Source: Rugalucina vietnamica (Eukaryota; Mollusca; Bivalvia; Lucinida; Lucinidae). From it: a DNA stretch of 64,000 nucleotides. The stretch is from assembly GCA_964017185.1 (NCBI GenBank), contig OZ024884.1, positions 18,384,048 through 18,448,047 of the forward strand, written 5' to 3'. The position numbers and the translations under genes were made by a program. Positions 1 through 43,870 of the stretch are shown in pieces (the first letter of the stretch is position 1; the number at the start of each line of letters is the position of its first letter). A model generated the notes under the pieces. The model was given only the letters and a program-made list of their open reading frames with translations, had not been told where the DNA came from and did not search any database.

Positions 1-493
1 GTGATTGATCTCTGGACATCAGATAAGAATTTTAGATAACATGAAGTAAAAGAATGGGAATTGTCAATTGCAGTCTTAAAGATGCGCATAAAGATCATAT
101 CTTAGTTAATAACCCTGCCATAAAAAGATGGCGACGACAGAAAGACATTTGAAAGAATAGGTTATAAAGATGTGCATGATAAGTTGACAGTAACTGAAGT
201 TTTTATCATTATTTCTCTTCAGCAGTTGAAAAAGTAAAACTTATGCGCCTTCAACATACCTGTATATTTTTCAATATGTTTTTAAAAAAGTTAAAGCTAT
301 CAGTATTTGCTTTTTCTGCAATGTTTCGCATCAGTGAAATACAGATATTAGTCGTGTACAAAATGCGTTATATGCATGTCTTACATTAACAGTACGACGA
401 GAATACATAAAAAGTTTGAAATGGCATTTAACTAAATTTGAGAAACATGAACAAATTTAAACAGTTTCTGTAGTTGATTTTGTCGGCGTGACA
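1..493 (-). repeat. 3' LTR (partial)
   Basis: This matches 2787-3279 base for base as far as I can follow by eye. On the minus strand it starts at 493 with TGTCACGCC and continues beyond the window start, so its promoter and polyadenylation part is missing here. Confidence 0.75.
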
Positions 494-1237: not shown

Positions 1238-2150
1238 TTATGACTTTGTGTCCATCCATTGAAAGATTGCTTTCATGGACAGGCGCGAAACACTATATAC
1301 AAGAATTCCTTCTACATGCAATAGCAGTATGGTGTACTTTGCTACACAACTGACAAATGACATTATATGCAGGGCAACCTGAACGCTTGTACAAAAAACA
1401 TGACTCACCCCCACATCCAAAGCATGTTCTTCTTTTGTTTCGATGTCTTGTGTGTTGTGTTGGCCTATGAGCTGTTGGTAGATGCTGCGGCCTTTTCTGT
1501 GGTGGTTGGTAGTGGTGTCTTGGTGGTATTGCGTAGGATCGATGATGATAATCCCGCTGTGTTGAAGGTGATAAAGGGTTTTGTCTTTGCACTGCACTGA
1601 CCCACGAAGCAAGTTGCTGTACAAGGTCGTTGTTTGCTTGTTGGAATAACTTATATCCATGTTAGCAGCTTGGCCGTCGAAGTAGAACCGTATTCCAACT
1701 AGTAACTGATCAGGCGATAGTGTGTTTACTTTACAGAATTCAGCATACTGCTTTAGAACATTTTCTAAGCAGACTTTGTCATCGCAGAATATGTCCTGTG
1801 ATACACTTAACGACATCGTTCTGGGTGGCGAAAAGTTAGCGCTTAGATGTTGAGGTGTGGTACCTGTTTCTGTAGTATCGCCTGGCTGTACTCTTGACGC
1901 AGACGGTTGTATTCGAGGTGACTTTGGCTGGTCGACGAAGGCTCGGCTATGTGTATAAAGTATATTCCGACTGACTGTCTGACCGCCTGACTTCTGTTGC
2001 TTGGAATGATGTTGGGGAATGTAGCTGCACGTGGTAGATTTGGACTCTCCGCCAAATTTCCCGCCAACGAGTTTGTTGTTTCGTTTTACGCGGGAATCTT
2101 TGTGACACGCGAGGACAACCTAAAAGGAATACGTCCAAAGAGTCAAACAC
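1238..2150 (-). pseudogene. degraded gag-like ORF with zinc knuckle
   Basis: Three overlapping minus-strand frames (2150-1947, 2067-1843, 1816-1238) and a fourth (1592-1293) look like one gag reading frame broken by frameshifts. The 1293-1592 frame has a basic His/Pro/Arg-rich stretch followed by a CCHC-like pattern: CFGCGG, then CPAYNVICQLC, then a His and Cys about ten residues on. That arrangement is typical of the nucleocapsid end of gypsy-type Gag proteins. The frame starting at 1816 loses the zinc knuckle near 1592, so a frameshift lies there. No pol follows. The position between two LTRs supports the assignment. I am confident about the zinc knuckle and less so about the N-terminal part. 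Confidence 0.5.
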
Positions 2151-2195: not shown

Positions 2196-2704
2196 CATTT
2201 TATGTACAAATAACATAACAACAACAATGTTACAAATAAATAAACAATACTCAAAACTAAATATCGTGCGCTAAATGTAAATGCATTATATGCTCAAAGG
2301 TGACGAAAACAATTATTTTACTACAGCTACATGCATGCGTGAAACAGTCTCCCAGGCGAAACAAACAATACATGCTAACAAACCTACATGCGTAAAATGC
2401 ATGCATAAAATAGTCGGAGACTAAAGGACACACATTAATTGAGCATAAATGCAAATTACAGGCAACATGCACATGTTAAACAAAAAAATGTAATCAATTT
2501 GTATATCCTAATTTAGGCGCACCCCAAAACAGAGATACCTGCACTGCAGCTTAATAATTGTTACAAAAAAAGAATAAAATAATTTAGATTATTGCAATGG
2601 AAATTTTAGTTAAAAAGATAGGCAAAGAGAAAGATAAATTAAGAAGATTCACTTACCTAAAAGGAATACGTCCAAAGAGTCAAACACTTAGTGAGCTTAT
2701 GACG

Positions 2705-2710
2705 TTTATT
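2705..2710 (-). terminator. AATAAA polyadenylation signal in the LTR
   Basis: Minus-strand AATAAA inside the 78-bp repeated block; also present in the 2118-2195 copy at the equivalent place. Confidence 0.4.
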
Positions 2711-2755
2711 CGACAAGCACTTGGAGTGAAGTGCTGAACTCATCGAATATCCCAG

Positions 2756-2761
2756 TTTATA
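2756..2761 (-). promoter_or_regulatory. TATA box in the LTR
   Basis: TATAAA on the minus strand, within CCAATATAAACTGG. It lies about 50 bases upstream of an AATAAA at 2705-2710, the spacing expected for a U3-R boundary. Confidence 0.45.
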
Positions 2762-3279
2762 TTGGGCAAGTGCAGGAAGCTCAAAAGTGATTGATCTCTG
2801 GACATCAGATAAGAATTTTAGATAACATGAAGTAAAAGAATGGGAATTGTCAATTGCAGTCTTAAAGATGCGCATAAAGATCATATCTTAGTTAATAACC
2901 CTGCCATAAAAAGATGGCGACGACAGAAAGACATTTGAAAGAATAGGTTATAAAGATGTGCATGATAAGTTGACAGTAACTGAAGTTTTTATCATTATTT
3001 CTCTTCAGCAGTTGAAAAAGTAAAACTTATGCGCCTTCAACATACCTGTATATTTTTCAATATGTTTTTAAAAAAGTTAAAGCTATCAGTATTTGCTTTT
3101 TCTGCAATGTTTCGCATCAGTGAAATACAGATATTAGTCGTGTACAAAATGCGTTATATGCATGTCTTACATTAACAGTACGACGAGAATACATAAAAAG
3201 TTTGAAATGGCATTTAACTAAATTTGAGAAACATGAACAAATTTAAACAGTTTCTGTAGTTGATTTTGTCGGCGTGACA

Positions 3280-4750: not shown

Positions 4751-4900
4751 TTGTCTTTGTAAAACTCTGAATCTCTCTTTTCAGTTCCATAATTTCAACT
4801 TCTCTGCACTCAAGCTTTTTGTCCGCTTCTTCATATAACTCAAAATAGTTTTTCAGCTTCTTTTCAGTTTCTGATTCCAATCCTCTAGACAGAGATTTAT
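4751..4900 (-). CDS. candidate exon D: coiled-coil segment of the DED gene
   Basis: A 150-base (50-codon) stretch is open on the minus strand and bounded by textbook splice sites: a pyrimidine-rich acceptor ending TGTCTCTTCAG before 4900, and a GTAAGT donor directly after 4751. Both junctions fall after the first base of a codon (phase 1-1). The peptide is highly charged, with Lys/Glu heptad-like spacing (ESETEKKLKNYFELYEEADK, then a Glu/Leu/Lys-rich run ending REIQSFTKT). A coiled coil is likely. It lies 575 bases downstream of exon C on the same strand and in the same phase, so I place it in the same gene. Linkage is inference; the splice sites and composition are seen directly. Confidence 0.55.
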
Positions 4901-5089
4901 CTGAAGAGACATCAGATCAAAATTTACATGGTAAAATGTACCTATTGGCCAGTCAGTAAATCAGTTTCCTGAGTGCTTCAAAGAGGGTCTTACATTGGCG
5001 TCCGGTCAGTTAAGGCTGGGTTTTTTTTCGTCAAAAAGTTAGTCAAAATTACTGCTGCAATCAGAGGTACGGCATGTTCCTGATCTAAG

Positions 5090-5330
5090 GGTGTTATTTA
5101 TGACCAATGCAAGACAAAATTGAGGCATTGCATCAGAAATCCAACAATCGGCATACGCAAAAACAAAGGCGCGGATCAGCTGTGCAAGTAGCTGCAGTAA
5201 CTGAACAGATTGTCAGCGCCTTTGGTTTCGCTACTCGGATAGTACAGTTCCTCTTCTGCTTAAATCCGAAATTTCAAGCTTCTAGTGTTCTTATTTGGCT
5301 GTACAGCCCGGTTCATATTTGACCAGGTAG
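5090..5330 (+). repeat. dispersed repeat relic, ICICENK-type
   Basis: Plus-strand frames here give fragments such as FATRIVQF and LNPKFQAS. I recognise these as translations of a repeat common in invertebrate assemblies. A second decayed relative is at 60480-60650 (frame ICICENK). It sits in the intron between exons C and D and is not a gene. Confidence 0.4.
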
Positions 5331-5475
5331 GAACCGAAATGTTTTTTTCATGTACAGGCGCAAATGGGTTTCAATCAAAACAAATAAATATTTAGTTGAG
5401 TACCCCGACCCATAAAGGTCAGTTCTCCTCTTCAGTCATTTGTTTCAACTTCTTAAATCGAATAATTTTAGTTAC

Positions 5476-5784
5476 CAGTTAGGAAATAGTCCTCTCCTCC
5501 AATCGTGATAAAATCAACACCGAAGTGGACCCATTCCCTGATGCAATCCTTGCCTTCAGCTGCCTTTTTGAGATACCGCACATGTTCAGTTTGTATCATC
5601 AGGGTTATCAGCAAACTATTGGACGGTTCGATCCCGGCAATCACCACGTGCTCTGGTGGTACAAACATGAGCCGCGCTGCATCTGCCTTTAAACCTTCCA
5701 GTAATGATCGACTGTACTGGTCTATGTTTTGACCGTCTGTGTTAACGCCTCCAATGTGAATTTTTACGTACGTGTAACCATTCG
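5476..5784 (-). CDS. candidate exon C: unrecognised alpha/beta-like module of the DED gene
   Basis: The minus-strand ORF spans 5881-5468, but its start is unlikely to be real. A strong acceptor (TTTTGTTTCGTTTACCTCGCAG, ending at 5785) and a donor (CTG|GTAACT, at 5475) trim it to 309 bases, 103 codons, phase 1-1. The peptide alternates hydrophobic strands and amphipathic helices: TYVKIHIGGVNTDG, a helix SLLEGLKADAARLMF, then HVVIAGIEPSNSLLITLMI, a Lys-rich helix, and FGVDFITIGGEDY at the end. I cannot name the domain. The IEPSNSLL block looks like a conserved core. Codon quality and splice sites make it a convincing exon. Membership in the DED gene rests on strand, phase and order. Confidence 0.6.
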
Positions 5785-7190
5785 CTGCGAGGTAAACGAA
5801 ACAAAAGTCGTTTAAGTTTATTTGTAGATCAATTATGGCAGATAGACGAATATTGACCGATAGACTTTTGGCTTTGGACATTTCAATTTTATAATGGTAA
5901 ACTATATAAATTCAGATAACATTTCAAGTAAGAAACAATAATTAATGTAGAATGTAGTATGGCAAGGAAGACAAACGCGTGAACTAAAGAATTTAAAGTT
6001 AAATGTGTACACTAGTTGGCCAATTAGGTTATCGTATGAGCGGCAAAGGCCAAGGGGATTTAAGGCCTGATTTTGGCCTCATGTGTCGGTAAAAATGAAT
6101 TTTGGAATTTTAAGGAGAATAGTATTGCAAATAGCTGCATAGAAATACCACTTTTTCCAATTTTGGATCTTGTTTTTAACCATTCAACATTATTTTCAAC
6201 TACCGGCCCACGCGACGAGCAATTTCTTATTATGAAATAATTATGAAGTATCATCCTGAGATATTGTATGCTAAATATCACTTAAAATTAAAAAAAAATG
6301 TATTCAGAAATGGTCAAAATAGACCAAAAAGTGCAGGTTGTGCTCTATCAATGGTTCTTCTGGGCGTTGCCATGGCAACGCTTATAATGGCAACGCTTAT
6401 AAGATAAATGAAGTACTTGTTTGTTTTAACAGAGGAGAAATATGGCTGTTTTGAGAAATAGTTTTCACACATAAATTCCTATTTTTTTAGCAAACTCGGA
6501 GGCCAAAATCAGGGGTTAAATGCCCTAGTCCTTTGATATCATTATTTGTGCGTGATTTGGCTATTCTATCTACTATAGAGGAGTACGATAAAGCGCAGTA
6601 TAGAACAAACGTCTTTTACAGCTAGATGTCTGCGCCATGTATTCGTCAAATCCAGTGAATTATTTACACGTGTATTTCATCCATACAGCTAGCTGGATCT
6701 GTGCTAACAGATTTTTGTTGTAATGTTTTCAGCATTAAACCAATGTCAGAAGCAAGCAAGTACTAAAAACCATTTTCAGCTTATTACGTTGGTGATGTTA
6801 AACGATAAACATCTCTGGGGATTTTTCCCTCCGTCAAGTACAAAGCGAGCCTGAGATAAATTTTCCTCACCCGGCACATTTGCTTTGAAAATATTTCTAC
6901 GGCCATTTTTTCCGTATTTATTATACTGATTCTAATGGTGAAAATGTAATGTTGTAAGGCTGACAGAAAAGAAACTTGAGTTCCCGCCAAACTGTGACCA
7001 TGGGAAAAAGCTGGGATATTTTTTGTCTTTAAGTGACGTTTTTAACTGCGCGACCGACCACCAAAATACTGCTAAACCGCTTAGGTCTGAGGCTTCTAAG
7101 GAACAGTTTACACTTTAAAACAAAATATCGCTTGCCCATCTGGGGTACATGCTGCTCACTTATATGTGATAGAGAACGGAAATTAGAAGC
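5785..7190. other. intronic, no feature recognised
   Basis: AT-rich sequence in the large intron between exons B and C. Two adjacent copies of a GGCAACGCTTATAA word lie near 6374-6404. No splice-bounded ORF was seen. Confidence 0.45.
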
Positions 7191-7199
7191 AAGAGGTAT

Positions 7200-7380
7200 T
7201 GCTGAATGACACAATGCCACAGCGATAGGATCGAATCCCTTTCTGCGCTTATATACTCTTTTCTACGCCATTCGATGCACAACGAGGTCGTTGACACATT
7301 ATTAAGCATTGTGAGGTCAAATATTGTACTTGTAGTTATCTTGAGATTTACCGTCACATCAACAGGCAATGTCATATGAA
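7200..7380 (-). pseudogene. possible Cys-loop receptor ligand-binding fragment
   Basis: In the minus-strand frame open from 7531 to 7160, the segment LPVDVTVNLKITTS...DLTMLNNVSTT...IEWRR resembles the first conserved block of nicotinic-type receptor extracellular domains: Pro-Val, alternating hydrophobics, Asp-Leu, then a Thr-Thr and Trp-Arg/Asp block. After IEWRR the expected motifs are missing in this frame. A neighbouring frame carries GFDPIAVALC, so a frameshift is possible. There is no clear acceptor upstream, no Cys-loop and no membrane segments. It is an isolated relic or chance similarity. Confidence 0.3.
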
Positions 7381-7385
7381 AGCGG

Positions 7386-7968
7386 GACCGATGTGTAAAA
7401 TGTAAAAAATAAGCAATCATCAGGTACCGGTGCAATAAAATGTCCATTCCTAAAAACCTGGTTGGAAAATCAAAATGGTAATAATATACTGATATAAAGA
7501 ACCTGTCGTCAATACCCAGTGAGTAGCACATAAAAACGGCTTACATTTGGATACAAAAAGCAGGAAACAAATCGAACCATAACAAAAAAAATGCCTTGGA
7601 ATGTTAAAAAATGAACCACAACAAACAATACCACCTTAGAGTATGACACAAATTGAACCCCAACAGTAGTAACGTATAAGAACGACCACTAGTGTAAGTT
7701 TCATCCACAAAATTTGATCAGAAACCAGGCGTCGAAACAAGGAACAGCTAGAGGGAAATATGTTTAAAGTTTTATTCCCATTTTATTCCCGTCGACATTT
7801 ATTCTAGTCATACTTAGACAAAACCATTGCATCGAGCTTCGGTTCACTTTGTTTGGATCGGACATGCTGCCGACCGAGCAGCTGTAGCACCTGTACATTA
7901 AATGGAAGAAATAAGTAAGTGTATCAGAAAAAATGTTGACGCGACTTGCCAATCATAATTCAATTCCT
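7386..7968. other. intronic, no feature recognised
   Basis: AT-rich. Around 7555-7660 it faintly resembles the 3' tail of the YLDD reverse transcriptase family, too weakly to call. Confidence 0.4.
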
Positions 7969-7969
7969 C

Positions 7970-9490
7970 TTACACGTATGATGCGCGTAACGTGCGTACA
8001 TTACACGTAATGATTTTAACCAATATGCTGGCAATTCATAAAGGCAGTCATTACGCATATTTAAGTATATACGCGTATTTTTGTAACCAATCGGGAGTGA
8101 AACAGTCTTACGCAAAGAATACGCGTAACATACGCGTAATGAATCAGCCAATAATGTTGAACTTGTATGGTTAAAGCAAAAAAAAAACGGATTTTGCTAA
8201 AACAACTAAAACAATAGATTTATCTAATCTTTTCTCAAACTAAGTCCTACGGTATAAATTTATTGCCTCGAACGAATAACATGTCCGTGATCACACCCAT
8301 GAGAAATATTTTCAGTGCATCTGTTCATCCCTGGATCGGTTCCTGATCTGACACCGAGTTTCTGTAGTGTTCGCTTGCTTTTGGATGTAGTTGAGATAAT
8401 TGAAAACAGATATATAAGAAGGAGAAAGAAACGTGGAAGAAAAACAAGTACAAACCTTACACCGTATAGTGGTGCTTCTACAAAATAGAGGAGGAACTCT
8501 ACTATTAAAGATTGAACAGAACTGAACATGATGGCTACCTACAAAGCGTGAATTTTCACTCCAGTGAAGGCTGGATGTTGACATAATGACGATTACTGGG
8601 TAAGCAAATGCTTCTTGAATCTGCAAACTAAAACATCATACGTAAATTTAAAGTATTTAAAATATAAAAAACTTCCTCTGTTGTTGTTGTATCAGGTATC
8701 CAGCCTTGATAGGCTTAACACCTGCATGCCACAGCCTGGGCACAGGGAAAGAGGATAATTTGCTACACGGTGGACACTGACACCCCGAGACCATCATACG
8801 GTCAAATAACTCCCCAAAAACTGAAGGGATTTAATGTGAATTTCAGAACCGAACGCTGGTCACGAATGTGTCGTGCCAGTGTATCGGTCGGAGCCTGTAC
8901 TTGAATGCGGAAGAAGAGCCCGAGTGCCGGGAGGGAGAACTGCAGCAAGCTTGTTCGGTGTACAGACATACCAAAACAGACATGTTCCCAATCTGCCTTA
9001 GGCGTCCGGGACAGAGGGCTGCTGCCATAGGTCGAAAACCTATGACAAACAAGTTGCCTTGACTTGCCCGTGGGGTACACTGCTTCATCTAAAAATGCCT
9101 GGTATGGACTTATTCTCCGCAGCCTCACAATACTTGAATAAATTCACGCCATTAATTTTCATCAATAAAATCCATTATACTTGCACATTCTTTGTTTTCG
9201 ATGTTATAATAAAATCAACCGTTAGGTACTTAAGCTTTTGTATCCCTTATGATACGCGTAAATACGCGTAAACGTATTGACAATCTGATTGGCTGATCAT
9301 TTATACGCGCAATGTCTGAACCTTACGCGTATCAACGCTTTAATCACTGCTTATGAATATTTATAAGATACGTTACGCGTAAATGCGCGTATGTTATGCG
9401 TGAATGCGCGTAAATAGCATAACGTGCGTAATACGCGCGTTATACGCGTATGATACGCGTAAATGGAGTACATTTACGCGAGCGGGAGTG
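7970..9490. mobile_element. word-array transposon, TACGCGTA type
   Basis: Two blocks (7975-8155 and 9235-9485) are packed with irregularly spaced variants of TACGCGTA and GCGCGTAA. They flank about 1.1 kb of different composition. The outer ends are roughly inverted: CTTACACGTATGATGCGCG on the left, and TTTACGCGTATCATACGCG when the right end is read in reverse. Arrays near the ends like this fit subterminal repeats of DNA transposons, where transposase binds. No target duplication or transposase was identified. Confidence 0.5.
8802..9128 (-). CDS. hypothetical 108-residue ORF inside word-array element
   Basis: This is the longest ORF in the interior of the 7970-9490 element and is visibly GC-richer than its surroundings. 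It has no recognised domain. The peptide is rich in Arg, Ser and Leu with no signal peptide or membrane segment. A plus-strand ORF of 64 codons overlaps it. It could be captured host sequence, a remnant of element coding sequence, or a chance ORF in GC-rich DNA. I favour captured or chance sequence. Confidence 0.2.
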   Translation of the reverse strand: MRLRRISPYQAFLDEAVYPTGKSRQLVCHRFSTYGSSPLSRTPKADWEHVCFGMSVHRTSLLQFSLPALGLFFRIQVQAPTDTLARHIRDQRSVLKFTLNPFSFWGVI

Positions 9491-10230
9491 TATCATTATA
9501 ATATATAATCGTTTTTATTTTCCCGATGCTCAACCAGAATTCTCAGGGTTTTTTTCTAAGTTATTGTGTTAATCGCTTCGCCTGATTGGACATGCAAATC
9601 TAATTGACATTTGCATGACTCAGTCTTATAAATTACCCTGAAACACAACACAACAATGTAAATACAGCCTAAAATTCTCCCGATTTCTACACAGACCATA
9701 CCTTCATAGCGCTGAAATGGATTCAGACAAAATGCGATAACTCCCCGACCTCGTGTTTACACCACAGACGTATGAAATATGTGAGACACTGTACACAATT
9801 CTCCGATGTTTGATTTTTGTCCTGGAGAAAAAGTTATTAATCGAACAACACGGAGCATGCAACAATTGTTTACCTTTTTAGGTGCTCCGATGCGGGACCG
9901 GCGAGTGCTCCGATCGATTTTCTTTCTCAAACAACGACGTGTTATTGTCATATTCAAACAACTCATGCTGGTTTAAGGTTTTACTGCTATTTTCGGGTTT
10001 CCTGCAGAATTTGCGTATGCATTAAATTGACATTGTCAAAACTGATACGAAAACGAAGAACGCGACTACTAAAACAACGCAATAATACCTTGGAACGGTC
10101 TGTAATAGATTATTTGGCGAGAAGCTTAAACATTTATTGTGTTGTTTTATATAAGGCTCATTTTACATTTGGACCAAAATCGAATTTTGCGAAATAATTC
10201 CGAATGTCTAAAATATATGTTTAGCCCAGT
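9491..10230. other. intronic, no feature recognised
   Basis: A short minus-strand ORF (9966-9757) ends its basic segment at an AAAAAG|GTAAAC possible donor near 9878, but the upstream acceptor is poor. I do not call an exon. Confidence 0.4.
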
Positions 10231-10239
10231 AAAATGGTT

Positions 10240-10625
10240 GGAGGACCCAAAACAAATTGCAACACAAATCCTTTTCTGATTTTCCATAACCTTAGCCCTG
10301 TATTATAAACATACTAAAAGTATACCAGAATCGGAAGATATGAAATTTGATTTTTTTCACCATCTTTGTTGAAGAAGTATTTTTATCTCCGCAAAACTAC
10401 CGCTAGAACTGTACTGTACCTGGGTCTATGCATAAATTTAGGTTGAATTTTAAACAAAGAAATACTCCTTAGGCTTCATCTGATATGTTTGTTACAATTT
10501 AGCTGACAAAAGTCTTGAAAATGGGTCAATTACAGTAAAATAAACTACAACAAGCACTGATTTACCCCACCCACTAATGCAAATTTTCGAAATTTCGTAC
10601 TTTAAATTATACAGATTTACAGGGC
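10240..10625. repeat. left arm of long inverted repeat
   Basis: Blocks such as AACAAATTGCAACACAAAT, ACATACTAAAAGTATACCA and CAAGCACTGA-TTACCCCACCCACT recur in reverse order and orientation at 13580-13945. The arms are diverged, with several indels. They are either the ends of one 3.7-kb foldback structure or two copies of a dispersed repeat in opposite orientation. Confidence 0.55.
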
Positions 10626-10779
10626 GTTTGAAAGTGCTTCAAGGAGATAGAAGAAGTAAATGTTTATAATTTAAGATGATAAGAGTGTTCCTAATGTAGT
10701 TTTCTTTTCAAGATGCTATAATCCCAGTTGGTAGAGTGTAGCTGATACACTGGTTCAAACTTTAATTAACGTAATTATA

Positions 10780-11655
10780 TGTTAAGTCAGATATGTCATA
10801 AATCAGACCAATCATCATCATGGCATTGTTGTAGCAATTATTTGATGCCATTTTAAGCTCTCTAGGGCATCACCAACTGTGTTACAAGAGATTTTGTAAG
10901 TAAAGCCCCTTTGCTTTTTTCGAAATGTGTTCTAATTTATAAGGTCTTTGCTATATTCATTTTCAGAATATAGAAATAATATTAAGCTTAAACTAGACAA
11001 CATATGACTAGTGCTTATTTATTTAGCAATTATGAACACCATTTTAAACTCTACATGGCTATCAGCAACTGAATTAAGAGATCTAGAGGTTTTGTAAGTA
11101 TACCCCCTTAGCTCTTTTGTAATTTTGCTCCAATTTGTAAGGTTTTCATTCATATTTTATAAGATAGAGAGTAAAATAAACTTATTCTAGACTGTAGTTG
11201 ACAAGTGGATTTTCTTAAAAGTCATAGCACTATTCTCAGCTCTGTAAAGACATCTGTAGCTAAGGTCCAAGAGATTCTGAACGCATACCACATATATTTT
11301 TTTCGTGGCTGTTCTCCAATCTATAAGTTTCTCCTTCAAATTTAATGAGGTAAACATCAAATAATTTACTTTAACTAAGACCATAATCATTCATTAGTAC
11401 ATAGTCTTAGCAATCATTTCCAGACTTTTTTCAGCAGATGAGTAAATGTGGCATTGTAGGTATACGCCAAAGTTTTCATGAGTTTCCGTTAATTTATAAT
11501 ATTATCTAACATATTAATTAGAAGTCAGTTAATATTAAATCCAACTACATTTCATTAGTGTATTGCCTTAACAATCATTTGACACATGTTTCAGCTCTGT
11601 AGGGTCATTAGAAGTTTGGAAACATGCGATTAACAAAATACACCACCTTAGTTTA
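10780..11655. repeat. degenerate tandem array, unit about 190-240 bp
   Basis: About five diverged units share the same order of words: a CTTAGCAATCATTT-like block, then TTTAAGCTCT or TTCAGCTCTGTAG-like, then AGAGATTTTGTAAGTA, then a pyrimidine run and AATTTATAAGGTTT. Starts are near 10830, 11025, 11215, 11405 and 11570. The spacing is irregular and no unit is coding. It lies between the inverted arms at 10.24 and 13.58 kb. Confidence 0.5.
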
Positions 11656-11659
11656 TTTA

Positions 11660-11870
11660 TTTGTGTGTATGAATGGATGTTTAACGTCCCAGTCAACAAC
11701 TATGATCATGACAGTATGTTGCCTCCATTTTATGGGACTTTTACCCAAAGTCAGTGCGTCCTGACATCCAAAAAGTGCTTCAAATATTGCCCACCAAGGA
11801 AGCCGCTGAGGATTAGTTTATTCATTATTGTCCATAAGTCTATATGGCTTTCATGCACATCCTAGGAGGT
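11660..11870 (-). repeat. possible SINE tail fragment
   Basis: The plus strand reads ATGTTTAACGTCCCAG after a T/G-rich run. In reverse this is the GGGACGTTAAAC end with A-rich tail typical of mollusc tRNA-derived SINEs. The same end occurs at 34720-34750. No tRNA-like head was recognised here. Confidence 0.3.
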
Positions 11871-12648
11871 AGAGGTCAGATAAGATTTTTTACTAAGGGT
11901 AGCTGCCGCAAAGTGGTAGATTGTAGAACACCAAATAAAAATAATCGACAGGTCCTGATTTCGACAGGTCCTGCTTAAGTGCAGTGTTGTGCCTTAGGCA
12001 AGACATATCTACTCCTTTGAGTACTGTTTCTACTAAGGAAGCATGGGTTCTGTCCGAACGTGACTACATAATCGTTAACTAGGACATTTAACCACAGAAC
12101 AAACAAAATATGTGTACTTGACAGCAAATAACTGATGCATGTTTAACCGTTTAACCAACAGTTACTTAGAAACGGTAGAAGGTAGAAATCCTGATATGTT
12201 TACACCAGACCACATATCAAACGGTGTCTGCAATCGTTCATTCAATACTCTATGACAATACACAGTTAAAAGCGTGCTTTCAAATAAAGTATAGCCCCTT
12301 TTCCCGCTTTGTTTTCGACGAATGTGTCCCCCATCCCATTTTCCAAGTTTGTAACCTTTATTCATGAATACGCAAATGAGATTATTTAATGATAAATCCA
12401 TGGGAGAACACTTCATTTTTCTTTCAGCAATGCTATGGCAATTTTCCACGATGACGGTTTGCATCTTAACTTACTAGAAGGTATTTGCCTTTAATTTTTC
12501 ATTTTTTTTTCTCCCTATTTCTCATTATTTTAAATAGGGGTTTTTAATATTCATGAATATGCAAATAAAGTTACTGACATACGTTACCATTGGTTAAATG
12601 GCTCTATGCTGTACATTTAGACCAAGTTCAGGTATAAAAGGTTAGTAG
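11871..12648. other. intronic; one unexplained 100-residue ORF
   Basis: A minus-strand ORF (12464-12162) shows no family signature, and I treat it as chance. The word TTCATGAATA(T/C)GCAAAT occurs twice (near 12361 and 12550). Confidence 0.35.
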
Positions 12649-12985
12649 TGTAACGAACAGCCGAGCCAAGCCACAGCAAACCCCGTCGGTGGAAAAGCAT
12701 GCTCATCCACCAAGGGTGGTTTACCGCGCTATATACTCAACACTTACTCGATTCACACAGTTTCGAGTTTGAAATTTGCATATTTCCAAGGGAGACTACC
12801 CCGTTACATTACTTCCCCCTCCGAGAAGACTCGTCCCGAGTCTTGGCCTGGGGACTACATGGGTAAGGCAACCCCGGTCTGGCGGTTGTCATCATCCCAC
12901 CGCTGCCACCAAATGTAACGAACGGCCGAGACAGGCCACAGCAAACCCCGTCGGTGGACCACCAAGGGTGGTTTACCGCGCTACA
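12649..12985 (-). mobile_element. miniature LTR retrotransposon (TRIM-like)
   Basis: A 337-bp unit has terminal direct repeats at 12649-12733 (85 bp, with a short insertion) and 12914-12985 (72 bp). Both start TGTAACGAAC; the right one ends CTACA. The unit is flanked on both sides by GTAG (12645-12648 and 12986-12989), a 4-bp target duplication. On the minus strand the sequence after the first LTR is TTTGGTGGCAGCGGTGGGAT, which looks like a gypsy-type primer-binding site. Before the other LTR there is a purine run GGAGGGGGAAGT, which fits a polypurine tract. There is no coding capacity, so it must have been mobilised by another element's enzymes (inference). It lies in the intron between exons B and C. 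Confidence 0.75.
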
Positions 12986-13579
12986 GTAGCAGCATGAGCT
13001 ATAATTAGAGATGTTACAGATTTTATACATGTTGGTACTTTCCCATTACCGTAAATCACATTAAGGGTTGCCCTGGATACTATGCTTTTTACAAAAACCA
13101 TACAAATATATATTTTTGAGGACCATTCAGAATTACTTTCCAGGGATCGTAGTGAAACATGTGTCATGCAGTAGTTATTATTCTAAATGGAAGCAATCTG
13201 TTTTCAGTTAGCCCACCGGATCTAAAGTTTACTTAAGTACGATTCTGCACCTAGTGACCTTTGATGCTTTAACCTTGTTATGACGTCATATTGAATTTTG
13301 ACGAGAAAGGAAGCTCATAATCATGGGCCTCATCTTATACACATGTATCTTCCTTTGCATTGAACAGTCTTAAAACATTTGTGTCTACTTAAAAAGAATA
13401 TAAGCCAGCAAACAGTTAACAATTTCCATAAATTCATGAAACCATGCACTGATAAGCCCCAAGATGCTTGACAACGCCACACTTTATGGCCTTTTCAAAG
13501 CCTTTGCTAGTCATTTCCGCTTAAGTGTATATTCTAATATGATCTTGTATTCTACAAAACATTTGGGAATGTTGACATA
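12986..13579. other. intronic, no feature recognised
   Basis: Unremarkable AT-rich sequence. No ORF with splice sites or repeat was identified. Confidence 0.45.
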
Positions 13580-13945
13580 AAATTGCATGTGTATGCACTG
13601 AAATACGAGTGGGTGGGGTAATTCAGTGCTTGTAAAGTTTCAACAACCAATGTTACTGAGCAAAAATGTTCGAATCTACAATCATTAGTGCAAATGTCAA
13701 GTTTTAATCTTTTCAGAATAGAAAATACACAACAATGATGTAAATTCACAATATATTACCACCTACTGATGAATGTTTTGAGTAGCAAAATATGTCAAAA
13801 CGTACACCAGAAAAGACAAAAAAAAATCAAATTTCATATTCTCCGATTTTGGTATACTTTTAGTATGTTGTCTAGGAAGGGTGTATCTCCACAAATATTC
13901 AAGAAACATTTGTGTTGCAATTTGTTTTAGGTTTACCAAAAACAT
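13580..13945. repeat. right arm of long inverted repeat
   Basis: Reverse-complement partner of 10240-10625. The shared blocks TGGGTGGGGTAATTCAGTGC, GGTATACTTTTAGTATGT and ATTTGTGTTGCAATTTGTTT appear in mirror order. Confidence 0.55.
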
Positions 13946-14154
13946 CTTTATTTTGACTAGACTAGTTGGGTACACAGTAACCTTTAACAAGAAAAGATTT
14001 GACTCAATTTCGAAGAAGATGTTGCTGCAGTTACTCTTCTACAAGGCCGAAAAATGTTTCTCAAAAAATGCCCCTCCCTCATCTGTTTTAACCGCCCCTC
14101 ATCTTATGGCTCAAATAAAAAAATGCCTCTTTATTGTTCAAATGTGGTAATTTG

Positions 14155-14371
14155 TAGTAGTCTATACTTGGTATTGGTTTTTGCTATTCATAGCCATGGC
14201 GGCCATCTTGGTCATGTGACCTGGACCATTTATACAAACTTTCATTCCACCTTCCTAAGGATGCGCCACATGAGGTTTGGCTTTGATTGGCCGAGCGGTT
14301 TCTGAGGAGAGGATGAAAAGCGTGGACGACGACAACGACGACGGCGATGGACGACTGAGCTTGGGTATACT
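14155..14371 (+). repeat. dispersed repeat ending AGGTGAGC, left part of a split copy
   Basis: This has CATGGCGGCCATCTTGGTCA, then a TTGATTGGCC-AGCGGTTTC block and a GACGACGG-rich run, as in copies at 27455-28620 and 29765-30408. It is interrupted at ...GGGTA and resumes at 15764-15785 with TAAGCTCAGGTGAGC. The intact target would read GGGTATAAGCTCAGGTGAGC. Confidence 0.65.
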
Positions 14372-15763
14372 AACTGAAAAAAGTTATAAGAGGCCGCCTC
14401 TTATTTTTTTCATCTATTTCGGAAAATAAAATACGGTCAATTAAAATCCATGATCATATGAATAATTCAATGTCTAACAGTGGCTCTGTGACTTTCTGCA
14501 TTCAAAAATGCGTAATATATCTCACACAGACGAAGCATGAGTAAAGGTACTCTCTTTTCATAAAGTCACACTTTATTAACATCAAATTAAATGTCATATT
14601 ATGACGATATTTTTTACATTTGAAGGTACTTGAAAGTGCTGCTGACTGCCATGATGCCAGATAAAATTAAGTCAGATTTGTTGCTGCAATAAGAATCTTC
14701 GTTTCTGTTTTGTACATGCGAGAAGACAGCAACATGAATAACAGGAATTCAGCTTTTGCATGCAATTCGCATACGAACTTTGTCCTTCTTCGGCTGCGTT
14801 ATTATCAGCAGCATGCCATTGAGATTTTCAGCGATTATTAAAGTCTAATACAAGACTCTGATTAACTTTGAAAATTTAAAAAATCGTCCACAAATTTTGT
14901 TATTTTGTTCGTTAAATATTGGCATTGAAACCGGAAGTGTGCGGCAGCCGTGACCTGTTTGTACTCGAAAATAGTCTTAACTCATTCTAGTTATAGCTCT
15001 CATTTCCAGGCCTCATCAAGTGAATTTAACAGGGACTAATAGAGGATCTTGCACGAGTGGTCATTTCATATGAAATTTATCAATCTCGCCGAAGGCTCGT
15101 TTAATAAATTTATTAAACTCGCCGAAGGCTCGTTTGGTAAATTTCATATGAAATGACCACGAGTGTAAGATTTGTTTCATCATATAACTTTTAAAATAGG
15201 ATTTTATCGCCTTCGAAGTGGACATATTTTCAATAAAAATTTGCTGTACATTGTTGTTACGGACGTCGTCAATGACGTTACGTATTCCCGCAAAAGTGTT
15301 AATACACGTGTGGTCATATGATTTTTATGACATGACGTTATCCACTGGAAAACAGCGACGTCATATGATAAACATGTTTAAGAGGCTAGGCACATTGATG
15401 AATGTTCCAAAAAAAATATCAAAAATAGCGATTTTTAAAAATGCGTAAAACATCTACCAGTAAAGAAAATTCGAATGTTGGGTGTTTTTCCAAGCCGCAA
15501 GGGCCCCTTTGATGACACCCGTTCCTTATTTCAATAAATGATGTGCTTTATCCATTTTTTTTTTATTTAAAACAATTATTTATTTTATTTTTTTTTTTTT
15601 TTTTTTTTTTGCATTTTTACTCAAAAAATAGTTAAAGAAAAGTATTTCTGAAAACTTTGAAACTTTACTTACTTGAAAGACACGTCTTTAGGCAAAGAAT
15701 CGTGCAATTTTGAACATCGCTAAGAAACCAAAAATGGGTTTGAAAAGTGGCCTCTTATAACTT
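14372..15763. mobile_element. non-autonomous TIR element inserted at TA (copy 1)
   Basis: This is homologous along its length to 32934-33977. It starts ACTGAAAAAAGTTATAAG and ends GGCCTCTTATAACTT, an inverted repeat. It sits inside an AGGTGAGC-type repeat at a TATA target, consistent with TA duplication as in Tc1/mariner elements. It is about 330 bp longer than the other copy because of the foldback insertion at 15040-15372. No transposase ORF is present. Confidence 0.65.
15040..15372. mobile_element. foldback insertion nested in the TIR element
   Basis: This block is absent from the equivalent place in the second copy (near 33600). Its left part is an inverted repeat whose arms read AGTGGTCATTTCATATGAAA (from 15057) and TTTCATATGAAATGACCAC (ending near 15161). 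Between the arms are two direct copies of CTCGCCGAAGGCTCGTTT. The right part, about 200 bp, is unexplained. The exact ends and target duplication are not resolved. Confidence 0.6.
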
Positions 15764-15799
15764 ATATAAGCTCAGGTGAGCTAAAAATCTCAAAGGTTT

Positions 15800-16260
15800 A
15801 GAGTACATTTGTGTTACGTCCCAGACACGCCGCTAAGCACGAGCTGTAGGCGCGCAGCAAAAACGTTCAACGCGCGTCTCACACACGCTAAGGCCACGCT
15901 ACTGAAACAATATCTCATTAAATCGGAACGCGCATGTAGCGTATACTGGCGAGCCTTAAACGTGCACCAAACAAGCATTTTCAACGTGCCTGGAACGCGC
16001 ATGGAACTTATTCGAAACGTATACTTCAGACGTCCGAAACACGCAGAGCTTCTAGAAAAATTTTAAGCATGTTTATTTTTTATCCCAAACGCGCACGAAA
16101 CACACGCCGCTTTTTAGCGTTGTACAGCGTCGCGCACCGGACGTACACCAAGGGTACCCAACGTACTCGTATCACGTTTTGAACGTGTCTCCGACGTCAG
16201 TCGTTTTTGGAATTTTGCAATTTTTTCAACACGCTCGGCGCGCGTTTTACTTACACGCTA
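15800..16260. repeat. word-rich block, ACACGC/GCGCG type
   Basis: The block is dense in ACGCGC, ACACGC, AACGTGC and CGTACAC words and is strongly CpG-richer than its neighbours. The overlapping ORFs of 85 and 62 codons on both strands are by-products of that composition. Inverted termini are not clear. It resembles the other word-array blocks in style but not in word. Confidence 0.35.
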
Positions 16261-17102
16261 ATGTGTGATTTCACTAGCGATCCAGATGCCGTTTATACAT
16301 GTATGTTAGGAAATTTCCGTAAATTTAGTCGCTTTCCGGCCCAGTTATGTTTTTTATCGATAACCGTGACGTAATGTTCTACAAATAGATATGAACGCAT
16401 GATTCCTCGTCTTAAAAATAGATATCGACTAATCCGCGAATCTGTACTAAAGCAGAGTATTGAGTCGTTTCGACCAAATATAAAATAAAGAATATCACAA
16501 AAGGACAAATTAATAAAGCCAACAGTGCATCACGAAAAACAACCATTATAAATAATTATTCTCACGAATAGACAGTCAATATTAACATTATAAAATAGCT
16601 AAAAAATAATGTTTTGGGCATTCTGTAATTATACTTTAGAAAGCAAAAACAACAATCTGTATCTAAATAGATGGGGGCGAAAAATATAAGTCTCCCACAG
16701 ACCGTGAACTGAAATGGCTGGACAATTTACGCATTATGGCCAATAATCTCACTTTTCAATTCAAAACTTCAATACCATTCAAATTGTTAAGTCGCACAAT
16801 TGACCAAACAATTGATTTTCATTAATAGGATTATACCTTTATTTCCAAAAAATAATAATTTAGACAAATAAACCGTCTTTCAAAAACGGACTATTTTGTC
16901 CCTCGGACGAATATCTATCGTAAGTTTTGCAATACAAAATGACATCTATAATTGGTTATGGAGTGAAGAGCTTGGAGTCATAAAAATAGTTTATCTGCTA
17001 TCTCATGTCATGTAGACTCAGGCGATGGTGGTATCAATGCTATTTTACACTTGCATACTTCTTTAATGTCAACCTTTTAGAGATAATTACGGTTAGACTT
17101 AC
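16261..17102. other. intronic, no feature recognised
   Basis: AT-rich DNA directly downstream of exon B. A 71-codon minus-strand ORF (16508-16293) has no splice sites or family signature. Confidence 0.45.
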
Positions 17103-17321
17103 GCGGTTGGTTTGGGGGTTTCTTAAAGTGTATCACATTCCCTTTCTTTTGTGCATATTCCACTGCTTGGTCAAACAGCTCGTGCTTGTTCATTCTGTAT
17201 AATAGAGCTTGTAGAAGAAGCAAGTTGTCCCTATCAATCAACGAATCCCCTTGGAGAACTTCGAACAATTCAAATCCAGATTTAATATTTTCACGGATTC
17301 GTCTTTTGAGACCTCTATCCC
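17103..17321 (-). CDS. exon B: second half of a death effector domain
   Basis: A 219-base exon, 73 codons, phase 1-1. The acceptor is TTTATTGTTATTTTAG just before 17321, and the donor CCGC|GTAAGT follows 17103. It encodes a basic turn (GDRGLKRRIRENIKSG), then FELFEVLQGDSLIDRDNLLL, LQALLYRM and a C-terminal helix with HELFDQAVEYAQKKGN. This is the helix 3-6 pattern of DED adaptors and initiator caspases: Leu-Phe, a short loop, then Asn-Leu-Leu-Leu, Leu-Leu, and an Arg/His-X-X-Leu helix. DEDs mediate homotypic contacts in death-receptor and innate immune signalling in the cytoplasm. The preceding half of the fold is in exon A. The tail VIHFKKPPNQPR leads out of the domain. No caspase domain is visible in this window, so the product could be a FADD-like adaptor or a larger receptor-proximal protein. 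Confidence 0.75.
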
Positions 17322-17454
17322 CTAAAATAACAATAAACATTAAATAGTAATGCTCAAAAGGAATTATTTGGTTGGTCAATTCAAATGTAGAATCCTTGTT
17401 TAGACATCGCAAGGAAATGAAACTCTAACGCAAGACAGCAGATTAATTGAAAAA

Positions 17455-18236
17455 TGAAAAATCACGTTACAGACGTATAGGATATAACTGAAATGTTATG
17501 CGACAGTCTGCATGCCTAGTTTTTGACCCAATCATGGGTTGATAACTATGCTGCCTTCTTTAATTGCACACCGGTGGGTCGGGCGTCAAACTCTATGATG
17601 ACCCCGACATAAAGATATTCCTTTTCGTTGGTTGGGGCCTGAGCTTCTTGACTGTTGCTTGACCCACCAGGGGTTCAACTGGTGCTTTTCGTTTGCTCCG
17701 GAATTCGTAAGTTATTTGGCGCCCAGGGATCTCCATCGTCGGGCAGCTTACTCAATCTGTTAGTCCTCGTTTTTGATTTACCATGGTGGTTATCATGATT
17801 TATTTGTATGTTCATGACGATTTATCGACTAGTTAGAGATTCACCACGAAAACCGAACAAATAACTAATTGTGCGAACCACTGCAGAAGCTGAGGGTGAG
17901 GTAAGGTACCTGTAAAATCGATTTTAGGCCGCCAGTAATTTTTATTTTACTGATCGTTCAAAAGCAATACTTTTGTGGTAGTTCTAACTGATTTATAATG
18001 TCTTGGTTTTTAAATATTTGTGCTGCTTGCACCTTATGTATGTTTTCATATATTTTGTTAAGTTTAGGTAACTGAGTGGCCACCTATTTAGAAAACAGAT
18101 TCTCATTCGGCTCACGATATGTTTTCATGGTATATGTATCTGATTGTTAACTCAGTTTTTCCCACCTTGGTTTTGGAGTGGGAATCTCTTTCTGATTGCG
18201 CCTTTTCCTGATCGTTGCCTACTTGTACCTTTTAAA
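17455..18236 (+). mobile_element. 3' fragment of YLDD reverse transcriptase element
   Basis: This matches the last ~45 codons and the whole 3' tail of the copy at 43871-45690, including GTTATGCGACAGTCTGCATG and the end ...TGCCTACTTGTACCTTTT. It is diverged, with single-base deletions that break the frame. It lies in the intron between exons A and B, about 130 bases upstream of exon B in gene direction. Confidence 0.75.
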
Positions 18237-18504
18237 ACACACACGTGAAAGGCAAGATGATTAACTGTTCCACAGCGAGGCAGCTACCCGAATAGCTTAC
18301 AGAAAAAAAAAACAGAAGTAAGTTAACTCAGATTCAAAGAAAACTTCAATTTAAAAAAAAAAAACATTTACATTATTTTCTTATCAAAATTTGTTTTGAG
18401 AAAATGAACAGACTCAATTTGAATGCTGTAACGCTGTCGTGCACAGGTTGCTTATGTTTTGTTTTTATTTCTAAGCATTCCTAGTTTCATTATTGTATTT
18501 GTAA

Positions 18505-18770
18505 TCATATAAGTAAAAGGGTACAACTAGGTAATGATCAGGAAATGGCGCAATCAGAAAGAAATTCCCACTCCGAAAACCGAGGTAGGAAAAAACAAAT
18601 TGATAATTAGGTACTTCTACTAAGAAAACATATCGTAAGCCGAGTGAGCAGATATTTTCCAATAGCCGGCCACTCAGTTACCCGAACTTAATTTAAATAA
18701 TGTTCAAACAGCAAAAACATTCGACTCCAAAACATAAAACAAATAGAACCACAACAGAAATTGCTTTAAT
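18505..18770 (-). mobile_element. 3' tail fragment of the same reverse transcriptase element
   Basis: Minus-strand match to the last ~250 bases of the tail (plus-strand word GGCGCAATCAGAAAGAAATT). It faces the 17455-18236 fragment tail to tail. Confidence 0.65.
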
Positions 18771-18827
18771 GACAATACTTAAAATGCCATAAAACATTGA
18801 ATTACTACATAAAAGCGAAAATGCTGA

Positions 18828-19442
18828 AGGGTCTGTCACACACTCGTGAAGACACAAAATGCTACGACTTGATACGAGTTAAAAGTAGCCGCATGTTGTT
18901 CGAATTGCCACGAGTTACGTTAGAAAGGTTAAAATGCTGTCACACACTTAAGCTGTTAAAGCTACGAATCAGCGGGAGTAATGTCCTACGAGTTCTTCAC
19001 GACGTCCCTACGACAAGTTGTGGAAACTCGCGAATACTCGTAGGAATGTCGAAGTAAACTCGCGTGATGGCGTAGTAACTCGTGAGAAGCCGCTTTAATG
19101 TCGTAGCAACTCGTCGGTAACTTGTAGGTAACAATCTTTGACTAGACGCCGAGAACATTCCACGAAATTACTACGAGTTATGTACTATGAGCTAAGAGAT
19201 CAATAAGACTTAGGCTCTGCCTTTCAATGATTTAGACGGCGAGATGAGACGAGAATTATAAACCGGTTGATATATTCGTAGCAATTTCACGACAAGCAAT
19301 GAGTTGCCACGTGCACGAGTTGGGAAGACTTGTGTACGGCAACAACCGACATATGGCGAGTTCTCTAAGAGATACTACGTGTTCACCAAAAAGTGGACAA
19401 AGCTTAACTCGTAACTCCAACTTTTGAGTGTGTGACAGGGCC
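18828..19442. mobile_element. word-array MITE, ACTCGTAG type, TIR CTGTCACACACTC
   Basis: The left end reads GGGTCTGTCACACACTC. The right end in reverse reads GGCCCTGTCACACACTC. The ~615-bp interior is filled with ACTCGTAG, CTACGAGTT, ACTCGCG and related words at irregular spacing, with two internal copies of the terminal word. No coding capacity; the plus-strand 86-codon ORF is a by-product. The target duplication was not resolved. Confidence 0.65.
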
Positions 19443-19499
19443 TACGGGTTAAAATGTAGGTAGTATTAAAATTCAATTTCAGTAACAATGTTTTAATAT

Positions 19500-19700
19500 G
19501 TTTTGATACACCAATATAAATTTGATGTACGACTTAGTCTTTTTTCTGTTTTATTCTTCATCGTCTTGTCCTTCATCATCATTTATAACAATAACATCAT
19601 CGTCATCTTCTTTTCTTCTTCTCTTCTTCCTTTTCTTACTTCGTCTTCTCCTTTTTTTCTAATTTCGTTTTGTCGCCTTAGTCATCGTGTCATTTTTCCT
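19500..19700 (-). other. purine-rich low-complexity tract
   Basis: On the minus strand one frame reads Lys/Arg-rich (RRRRSKKRKKRRRKEDDDD) and then acidic (INDDEGQDDEE, stop). This resembles the basic-acidic tails of some nuclear proteins. The acceptor is weak and simple-sequence DNA explains it as well. I do not add it to the DED gene. Confidence 0.2.
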
Positions 19701-19784
19701 TCATGTTCATAACCATTTTTAAAATGCAGAGTAAGGCATGTTTTACTTGTAATATTGATTTGTGTTATGCTATATTCAACCCAC

Positions 19785-19983
19785 CTTTTAATCTTGTTTT
19801 GATTTCTTCAATGTCATCAGCAGATAGCTGTTTTGCTATATTCGTTAGCAGATCGTTGAATTCATAGTCCACGGGTATATTACATTGTTTAATTGGGACA
19901 TTACTGTGCGTAGTTACGGTCTCTGGATTTCGTAGAGGATGGAATTTCGCCGAGGTTACGTCCTCAACATTTTGCTCGGCCAT
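19785..19983 (-). CDS. exon A: start of DED protein, first half of the domain
   Basis: The ORF opens with ATG at 19983 and ends at a AAAAG|GTGGGT donor (19784), after 66 codons plus one base (phase 1). Residues 1-38 look like an unstructured leader (MAEQNVEDVTSAKFHPLRNP at the start). Residues 40-66 read YEFNDLLTNIAKQLSADDIE followed by EIKTRLK. This is the helix 1-2 signature of a death effector domain: a Phe/Leu-Leu core, 'X-Leu-Thr/Ser-X-X-Asp/Glu-X-X-X-Leu/Ile-Lys'. The split Gly codon (G|GG) is completed by exon B, giving LK-GDRGLKRR, which fits the end of helix 2 and the following turn. Just upstream is an A-rich/T-rich stretch with possible acceptors (CAG, TAG), so a 5' non-coding exon is likely. 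The GTGGGT donor is less than ideal but acceptable. Confidence 0.7.
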
Positions 19984-21014
19984 CTAGAATTTTTTTTTCT
20001 GAAAAAAAAAAAATAAATAAATAAATAAAATAAATAGATGCACAGACAGTTTCGTTCGCCATAACATTTACTGATACCCATTGCCATAGTTTGATATTTA
20101 TTCAGAAAAAAAAACTTATTTGATTTGTAATAAAATTTTGCCGTTGTTGTTTTTCAAAAGACTTTCGCCACAACTTTTACTGATACCATAATATACACCT
20201 CAAAATACACTGAAGAGCTTTAAAAACGCAAAAAAGAAAATTGGATTTTTTTTATTGCGCCAAGGACATTTTTAGTCTTCCTTAACAGGTGAAATGGGTA
20301 GATAACTGTACTCTACTTCTATTTTTACATGAAATCGGCATTTGTAAAGTCACTGACCCCCACAGCAATAGAAAGCCATTTTACACTTTTGTCAAGTGGC
20401 GTCTCGTTGAATTAATGAAGAAAAATATTTGACAATTTCACACGGAGCTTGTAGTTATCCATGTATAAAAAACACTTTAGTTTTAGTTTTGTCTCATTTT
20501 TGATCATTCTACGGGACTTTGAAAATGAAATATCCAACACAATTGAATTTTTACAAACTTTATGGCGTATATGTGACGTCACGTGGCGTCATATTTACCA
20601 TTTTTCATCTATACGGCACTGCAGCAGTCCCTCCCAGGCTATTGGGACAGGGAAAGTTTGACGCCGGTCTGATCAAATGAACTTTTCACGTCAAGGCACT
20701 AATGCCTCTAGAGATTTGACGTAAAGTGGCTTTATTACGTCGATTACGTCGACCATGACCATTCAGACAAGGTAGCATTATTGCCAGACAATCAATGCAA
20801 CTAGCAAAACCTGTATTTATGATAAAACAGCAATGCTTTTTATGCCAAGAAGCAAATTGTAGTCGTGCTCAATATTATTTTCAGTTTTGGGTTTTAGGGG
20901 TATTGCTACATGAAGGACTGTTGCTTTCACATTACTCATTATTTTGATACGAAAATCACAACATAGTTGTCAAATTTCATCAAAATCGAACCACTATAAA
21001 TATGAGAATACATT
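19984..21014. other. upstream of the DED start; no feature recognised
   Basis: Contains an (AAAT)n-like run at 20011-20035 and several homopolymers. I see no TATA box or CpG cluster that would define the promoter. Confidence 0.4.
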
Positions 21015-35003: not shown

Positions 35004-36565
35004 AAGGTACAAGTAGGCAAAGATCAGGAAAAGGCGCAATCAGAAAGAGATTCCCACTCCAAAAACCGAGGTGGGAAAAAACCAAACTAACAATCAGGCA
35101 CTTATACCATGAAACATATCGTAAGCCGAATGAGCAGCTATTTTCCCAATAGGTGACCACTCAGTTACCTTAACTTAATTAAAAATATGAAAACATACAT
35201 AAGGCGCCAACAGCACAAAAAATGTTAAACACCAAGACATAAAACAAAAAGAACCACCACAGAAGTATCGCCTTGGAACGATCAGTAACACAAAATAACT
35301 GGCGGGCTTAAACCGGTTTTACAGTTTCCTAACCTCACCCTCAGCTTCTGCAGTGGTTCATAAGATTTAGTAAGTTCTTCGGTCCTCGTGGTGAATCTCT
35401 AACTAGTCAATGAATCATCAAGAACAAACAAATAAATCATGATAAACATCCTGATGAATCAAAAACAAGGACTCACAGATTGAGTAAGCTGCCCGACGAT
35501 GGAGATCCCTGGGCGCCGAATAACCTACTAACTCCGGAGCAAAAGAAAAACACCAGTTGGACCCCGGTGGGCCAAGCAACAGACAAGAAGCTCCGGCCCC
35601 AACCAACTATAATGAATAGCTTTAAGTCGGGGCCATCATAGAGTCTGACGCCCGATCCACCGGCGTGCAATTAAAGAAGGCAGCATAGTTATCAACCATG
35701 AATGGGTTAAAAACTAAGCATGCAGACTGTCGCATAACATTCAAGTTATAATCTATACGTCTGTAACGTGTTATGATTTTTCTGAACTGAAAAGAAAAAT
35801 CATTAATTCCTACAAGTTTCTTAAATTTGTAAACTAAGTCACCATAAAATTCAGGTTCCGAAAGGCCCTCACTTAAAAGCGTCTTTAATCCAACATTATA
35901 TTTGGAAATCAATTCATATTGTCTACGATAAAATTCAGAAAAGGTTTTTCGAAGTTTATGATACCGATAGCCCTGTTGGAGAAGTTTTGCCGTTAAACAT
36001 TTATTTCGAGCGTTGAAGTCTGTAACATGATTGCAGACTTTAGCAAACCTAATAAGTTGCGAAATGTAAACACCATAAGAAGCACGACGAGGAACGTCAC
36101 CATCCAAGAAAGGAAAATTTACTATATCAAAATCAAAGTCATCGCGCTTATTATAAATTTTAGAAGAAACAAATCCATTTGCAACAGAAAGATGTAGATC
36201 TAAAAAGGGGGCTTCGGTATCTGAGATATTGGCTTCGTTCAACTGAAGTTCAGGTGGATAAATTTGATTGACCATACCTTCAAAATAAGGGTTGTCAATG
36301 TTCAAAAGGTCATCGAGGTACCTAGATGTGGAATTAAAAGCCTCGATAACATCAGCTTGATTATCATGGTTAAGAGAATCCATGAAATCTCTTTCGTAGC
36401 AGTATAAAAATAAATCAGCTACGAGAGGTGCGCAATTTGTACCTATCGGAATTCCAACAATTTGTCTGTATAACTTGGTCCCAAATCTAATATAAATATT
36501 ATCAAGGAGATACGACAAGGCGTCGCACACATTCTGACATGACCAAAGTGTATACCGACACTGTA
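35004..36565 (-). mobile_element. YLDD reverse transcriptase element, 5'-truncated copy
   Basis: It starts (gene direction) at 36565 within the reverse transcriptase, runs through the stop at 35622 and continues through the full 3' tail, which ends at GGTACAAGTAGGC (35004-35016). Homology to the 43871-45690 copy stops sharply at 36565, so 5' truncation at insertion is likely. Confidence 0.75.
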
Positions 36566-36605: not shown

Positions 36606-36649
36606 TTTCTACTCATATTATGACAGCTCTTACGTTGTCTTTACTTCAT

Positions 36650-43810: not shown

Positions 43811-43870
43811 ATTATCAGACACACTGTGAATGCCCCTACGGTACAATACCACATGGCGATGGCTGCCTGG

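Follow-up and report, generated by a model that had tools for sequence, protein, structure and literature searches.

The 64,000-nucleotide stretch of the Rugalucina vietnamica genome analysed here (G000:C16:18384048-18448047, hereafter the window) carries four exons, A to D, of a minus-strand gene that encodes a probable cell-death or immune adaptor composed of a death effector domain (DED), followed by a TRADD-N-type domain and then by a coiled-coil tail. With two further exons, E and F, which lie just outside the window, they almost certainly constitute a single intact six-exon gene, as judged from their reading frames and from copies elsewhere in the searched genome (1.09 Gb, 47 contigs). 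The gene belongs to the known DED-TRADD-N group; its tail is plain and coiled-coil-like, and its copy number is low.

Gene structure, copies and selection

The coding part of exon A (19785..19983, 199 nt) holds the ATG, about 40 leader residues and, judging by the sequence pattern, helices 1-2 of the DED, and ends in phase 1. Exon B (17103..17321, 219 nt) supplies the presumed DED helices 3-6 and the linker HFKKPPNQP, exon C (5476..5784, 309 nt) the TRADD-N-type domain, and exon D (4751..4900, 150 nt) the first helical, coiled-coil-like segment of a tail that continues in E and F; B, C and D are each phase 1-1. As a first-pass annotation of the sequence had proposed, the reading frames of exons A to D are open and all junctions are phase 1, with AG directly before exons B, C and D and donors GTGGGT, GTAAGT, GTAACT and GTAAGT after A, B, C and D, respectively.

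At the DNA level, exon B matched one more site, 82% identical, on the same contig, and a protein search with exon C returned a match 0.5 kb beyond the B exon of a paralogue, plus a third place on contig C6. The paralogue, 6.2 Mb away, keeps the order and strand of A-B-C-D within 2.3 kb (C16:12236803-12239102); tblastn against the 70 kb around it recovered A, B, C and D with E-values of 1e-16, 6e-29, 5e-53 and 1e-11, and its splice sites lie at homologous places with phases identical to those of the window gene. This collinearity bears out the earlier proposal that C and D belong to the same gene as A and B. The paralogue runs on through two further phase-1 exons to a stop, for a total of 414 residues, and the peptides of these exons match exon E of the window gene (G000:C16:18382155-18381910, minus strand, starting 1.9 kb outside the window; E 2.6e-5) and exon F, which holds the stop codon (G000:C16:18381296-18381115, minus strand, starting 2.75 kb outside; E 5e-4). 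Together, E and F complete the frame past D, giving 434 amino acids plus a stop and 1305 coding bases without an internal stop or frameshift, with a usable donor and acceptor at each joint.

The third copy, on C6, repeats the A-B-C order, with A at 32043124, B at 32048566 and C at 32069414, and its joints are likewise phase 1. Under strict splice-site rules, no further exon of this copy was recognised between its C and C6:32100000; a scan for tail exons gave five candidates, the best of which is a reverse-transcriptase-like frame. The long B-C introns of the window gene (11.3 kb) and of the C6 copy (21 kb) might suggest two adjoining genes, A and B forming one DED gene and C and D part of another, but this is highly improbable given that 0.5 kb separates B from C in the paralogue, where the phase-1 sites match, that the C6 copy has the same A-B-C order, and that both complete copies stay in frame from A to the stop in F. 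Exon A itself probably starts upstream of the ATG: an in-frame TAG lies immediately 5′ of it, and an acceptor AG at 20000-19999 would make 19984..19998 (minus strand) the probable end of the 5′ untranslated region. An AG precedes the ATG by 15 nt in the paralogue and by 10 nt in the C6 copy.

Identical residues between the window gene and the paralogue number 43 of 67 in A, 56 of 73 in B and 78 of 103 in C, and 23 of 50, 27 of 73 and 18 of 46 aligned positions in D, E and F. The gene is under purifying selection, with an omega between the two copies of 0.339 over 412 codons (bootstrap 0.252-0.447). Omega is lower in A-C (0.229, 243 codons; 0.205 over the 177 codons of B and C) than in D-F (0.456, 169 codons; 0.274-0.707), and thus the DED and exon C parts are conserved while the tail is looser. 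A decaying duplicate with relic exons, which introns rich in repeats, among them a recent repeat-flanked insert, might bring to mind, is hardly credible against an upper bound on omega of 0.45, the uninterrupted coding sequence and the usable donor and acceptor at every joint.

Copy counts per exon are lower bounds: genome-wide, exon C occurs at at least three places, B at at least four and D at at least two. The fourth B-type DED exon (C6:68654556-68654765, locus L042) carries an RHDL motif and the linker NVVYFMSPPDVP; exon C was not recognised beside it in the 3.2-kb locus, which covers 1.5 kb beyond B (best E 0.08, not significant), and its gene may or may not carry a TRADD-N domain. On sequence grounds, the copies look like whole-gene duplicates. 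Exon shuffling, which had been suggested as the source of expansion, was considered and rejected, as three copies keep the A-B-C order and each C exon (3 of 3) stands behind a B. Shuffling is not needed, since the copies resemble whole-gene duplicates and B is not a domain alone. The related remark that any of B, C and D can be skipped or duplicated without losing frame agrees with the phase 1-1 symmetry of these exons, but the A-B intron falls inside the DED, apparently between helices 2 and 3, and loss or duplication of B by itself would disrupt that domain. A complete domain within one phase 1-1 exon is present in C alone.

Domain assignments

Joined, exons A and B match the DED model PF01335 (curated cut-off 35.9 bits) at 48.1 bits (E 1.4e-12, model positions 1-81 of 82), confirming that their junction restores a split DED. 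The full protein scores 46.2 bits, and exon B alone scores 35.1 bits, slightly below the cut-off; the DEDs of the paralogue and of the C6 copy reach 44.0 and 50.1 bits. Genome-wide, at least 12 of 21 scored candidates matched the DED model, 9 of them above the cut-off. The best solved-sequence matches to A and B are PEA-15 (E 1.2e-4) and FADD (E 3e-4). PMC4558505 names an E/D-RxDL charge motif for DEDs; at this position the window gene and the paralogue have KHEL, which keeps the charge and not the letters, the C6 copy has RRDL, and the B exon at C6:68.65 Mb has the RHDL noted above.

Exon C had been taken for a novel, unnamed module. By profile comparison and structural modelling, it is very probably a TRADD-N domain. 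In single-sequence scans, window exon C alone had no Pfam match, and it had no match among solved-structure sequences (E up to 1). The exon C of the C6 copy, 38-40% identical to it, scores 23.2 bits as an exon against PF13820 (NCOA6_TRADD-N), above the cut-off of 22.5 bits, but only 20.1 bits in the joined protein and 21.9 bits in a genome search. A profile built from the three C copies ranked the NCOA6 TRADD-N of the same genome first among 5001 sequences (22.0 bits, E 4.1e-5), whereas the best of 5000 shuffles reached 9.6 bits; a two-copy profile did not separate NCOA6 TRADD-N from shuffles. Comparison of the three-copy profile with NCOA6 TRADD-N by hhalign gave a probability of 80% and E 1.4e-5, and the segment IEPSNSLLITLMI of exon C (5594..5632, minus strand), which spans strands 2 and 3 of the TRADD-N-type domain together with the turn between them, aligns with VEPWNSVRVTFNI of the NCOA6-type gene in the same genome.

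Structure prediction, which the first-pass annotation had called for, is consistent with this assignment. A single-sequence AlphaFold2 model of exon C (pLDDT 81, pTM 0.73) has the order beta-alpha-beta-beta-alpha-beta-beta and matches an RRM-like two-layer alpha+beta sandwich with a four-stranded sheet. In a Foldseek search of the model against 350,542 PDB chains, the TRADD-N structures 1f2h and 1f3v ranked fourth (E 0.036) and eighth (E 0.066); by themselves, the Foldseek and VIA rankings did not single out TRADD-N. Section 8 of PMC8195603 describes a uS motif with a serine in the beta2-beta3 turn of TRADD-N. Ser56 of exon C (5615-5617) lies in the turn between predicted strands 46-53 and 57-64, and the turn serine is kept in the window gene, the paralogue, the C6 copy and NCOA6. 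It is preceded by N, S, A and N, respectively, and the tiny residue of the uS motif is therefore missing in the window copy and in NCOA6. The domain probably belongs to the NCOA6 clade of TRADD-N. Among viral contigs and bacterial and archaeal genomes, 50 and 23 stretches matched a pattern, and none was confirmed as a relative of exon C. Elsewhere in the genome, a 182-residue frame at C17:32879376-32879525 (locus L019) scores 25.7 bits against TRADD-like_N (PF20694; cut-off 23.7) and possibly belongs to a DEDD2-type gene.

The coiled coil proposed for exon D is supported as a helical, coiled-coil-like segment. The prediction for exon D is a single helix over residues 2-48 (pLDDT 92), and in a simple heptad test the score of the exon was reached by 28 of 5000 shuffles; the corresponding counts were 39 for window exon E, 26 for paralogue D and 209 for paralogue E, and 1272 and 3000 for the DED and exon C controls. 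The tail has a basic end, and the best-kept stretch of exon F in both copies is KRRP(W/Y)SSGT.

Putative mobile elements around the gene

In the D-E intron, two 798-nt direct repeats (window -304..493 and 2482..3279) are 100% identical, lie about 2 kb apart and apparently have TG...CA ends; the pair looks like a very recent short insertion of the long terminal repeat type. Neither of the open frames that they enclose (1238-2119 and 1293-1661, minus strand) matched a Pfam family. Further along the window, two closely similar reverse-transcriptase-like frames lie in opposite orientation (35622-36608, minus; 43490-45063, plus), which we take to be Penelope-like from their appearance; the first matched no family in a Pfam scan, and the matches listed include a further relative, 92% alike, upstream of the paralogue. 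A 414-residue frame at 55913-57157 (minus strand) scores 106.8 bits against the reverse transcriptase family RVT_1 and probably represents a LINE-type element. About 0.8 kb upstream of the C6 exon C (L017:1501), the region L017:1-700 holds a frame that looks like an adenain-type cysteine protease.

Relatives and possible role

Kaur et al. 2021 (PMC8195603) describe a DED followed by TRADD-N as the constant unit of bivalve, amphioxus and cnidarian proteins whose C-terminal domains vary, with Death-like domains preceding TRADD-N in a sponge and DED plus TRADD-N present in vertebrate DEDD2. The pairing is thus known, also from vertebrates. The first-pass annotation had not recognised from vertebrates a layout of DED, novel module and coiled coil; its placement of the gene in a cell-death or immune family agrees with the published bivalve relatives, which are described as apoptotic or immune. 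On our gene model, the DED directly precedes TRADD-N in one polypeptide: A, B and C are collinear in three copies and share a continuous frame. The constant DED-TRADD-N, the variable C-terminus and gene duplication are shared with the NCOA6-clade bivalve proteins of that text, whereas the window gene has a coiled-coil-like tail in which no effector or receptor part was detected, and only three copies, a lower bound, were found here against the 50-66 it reports for Crassostrea. DEDD2 (FLAME-3) likewise has an N-terminal DED and a TRADD-N in one protein; according to the same text, its TRADD-N belongs to the other clade. In the literature searched, we found no description of a DED-TRADD-N protein with a coiled-coil tail, and the word "coiled" occurs once in the main text of PMC8195603, in another context.

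By Pfam, no enzyme or sensor domain was found in the 434 residues (E up to 0.1). With TRADD, the window gene has in common the TRADD-N fold, the beta2-beta3 turn serine and an adaptor logic; like FADD and PEA-15, it has a single DED and no enzyme domain, but those two, to our knowledge, have no TRADD-N domain. DEDs stack with other DEDs, TRADD uses its TRADD-N domain to bind the MATH domain of TRAF2, and coiled coils self-associate. We favour, with some reserve, a 434-residue adaptor in a scaffold role, made of a leader, one DED, a TRADD-N probably of the NCOA6 clade and a coiled-coil-like tail with a basic end. By analogy with these known systems, there is roughly an even chance that such an adaptor links DED partners to TRAF-like partners. 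The tail would self-associate and oligomerise the adaptor, the DED would join DED assemblies with FADD- or caspase-8-like partners, and TRADD-N would offer a MATH (TRAF-type) partner its sheet and the conserved serine of the turn; a caspase arm would then be linked to a TRAF/ubiquitin arm within one molecule, two jobs shared by TRADD and FADD in vertebrates. Possible DED partners are suggested by two loci. At the first, DED exons lie at C16:17111881 and 17113224, and caspase-domain matches follow on the same strand 16 kb on (17129148 and 17130584, the latter containing two stops). At the second, a caspase domain at C6:65143353 has a weak DED match (65144488; 30.9 bits, below the cut-off) within 0.5 kb of it.

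Two other roles are conceivable and appear unlikely. As an effector-less protein of the PEA-15 or FLIP type, the gene product could end or divert DED filaments and so restrain caspase-8-like enzymes; its single DED, the lack of a Pfam enzyme domain and the PEA-15 and FADD matches would fit such a decoy, whereas TRADD-N and the coiled-coil-like tail are binding and oligomerising modules, which suggests assembly and not capping. A nuclear regulator like DEDD2 or NCOA6, placed at chromatin or the nucleolus by TRADD-N and the KRRP(W/Y)SSGT stretch of exon F, is similarly doubtful. This role would accord with the conservation of that stretch and, according to PMC8195603, with the nucleolar DEDD2, a DED plus TRADD-N protein, and with the TRADD-N of NCOA6, which sits in a transcription coactivator; yet a short stretch of basic residues makes a weak nuclear signal, and the same text describes the bivalve expansions of the NCOA6 clade, many of which are receptor-like, as apoptotic or immune.

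Returning to the bridging adaptor, we propose tentatively that DED, TRADD-N and coiled coil form a one-molecule bridge without sensor or effector, in which the DED-TRADD-N part is under purifying selection and the tail may diverge to tune assembly. Exon C illustrates that a seemingly unnamed exon can be a known domain beyond the reach of a single-sequence Pfam scan. The gene is an intact, selected example of DED-TRADD-N in a minimal layout with few copies found in the genome, and because the relatives described in PMC8195603 belong to large families with many extra domains, it is tractable for addressing the role of TRADD-N outside vertebrates.

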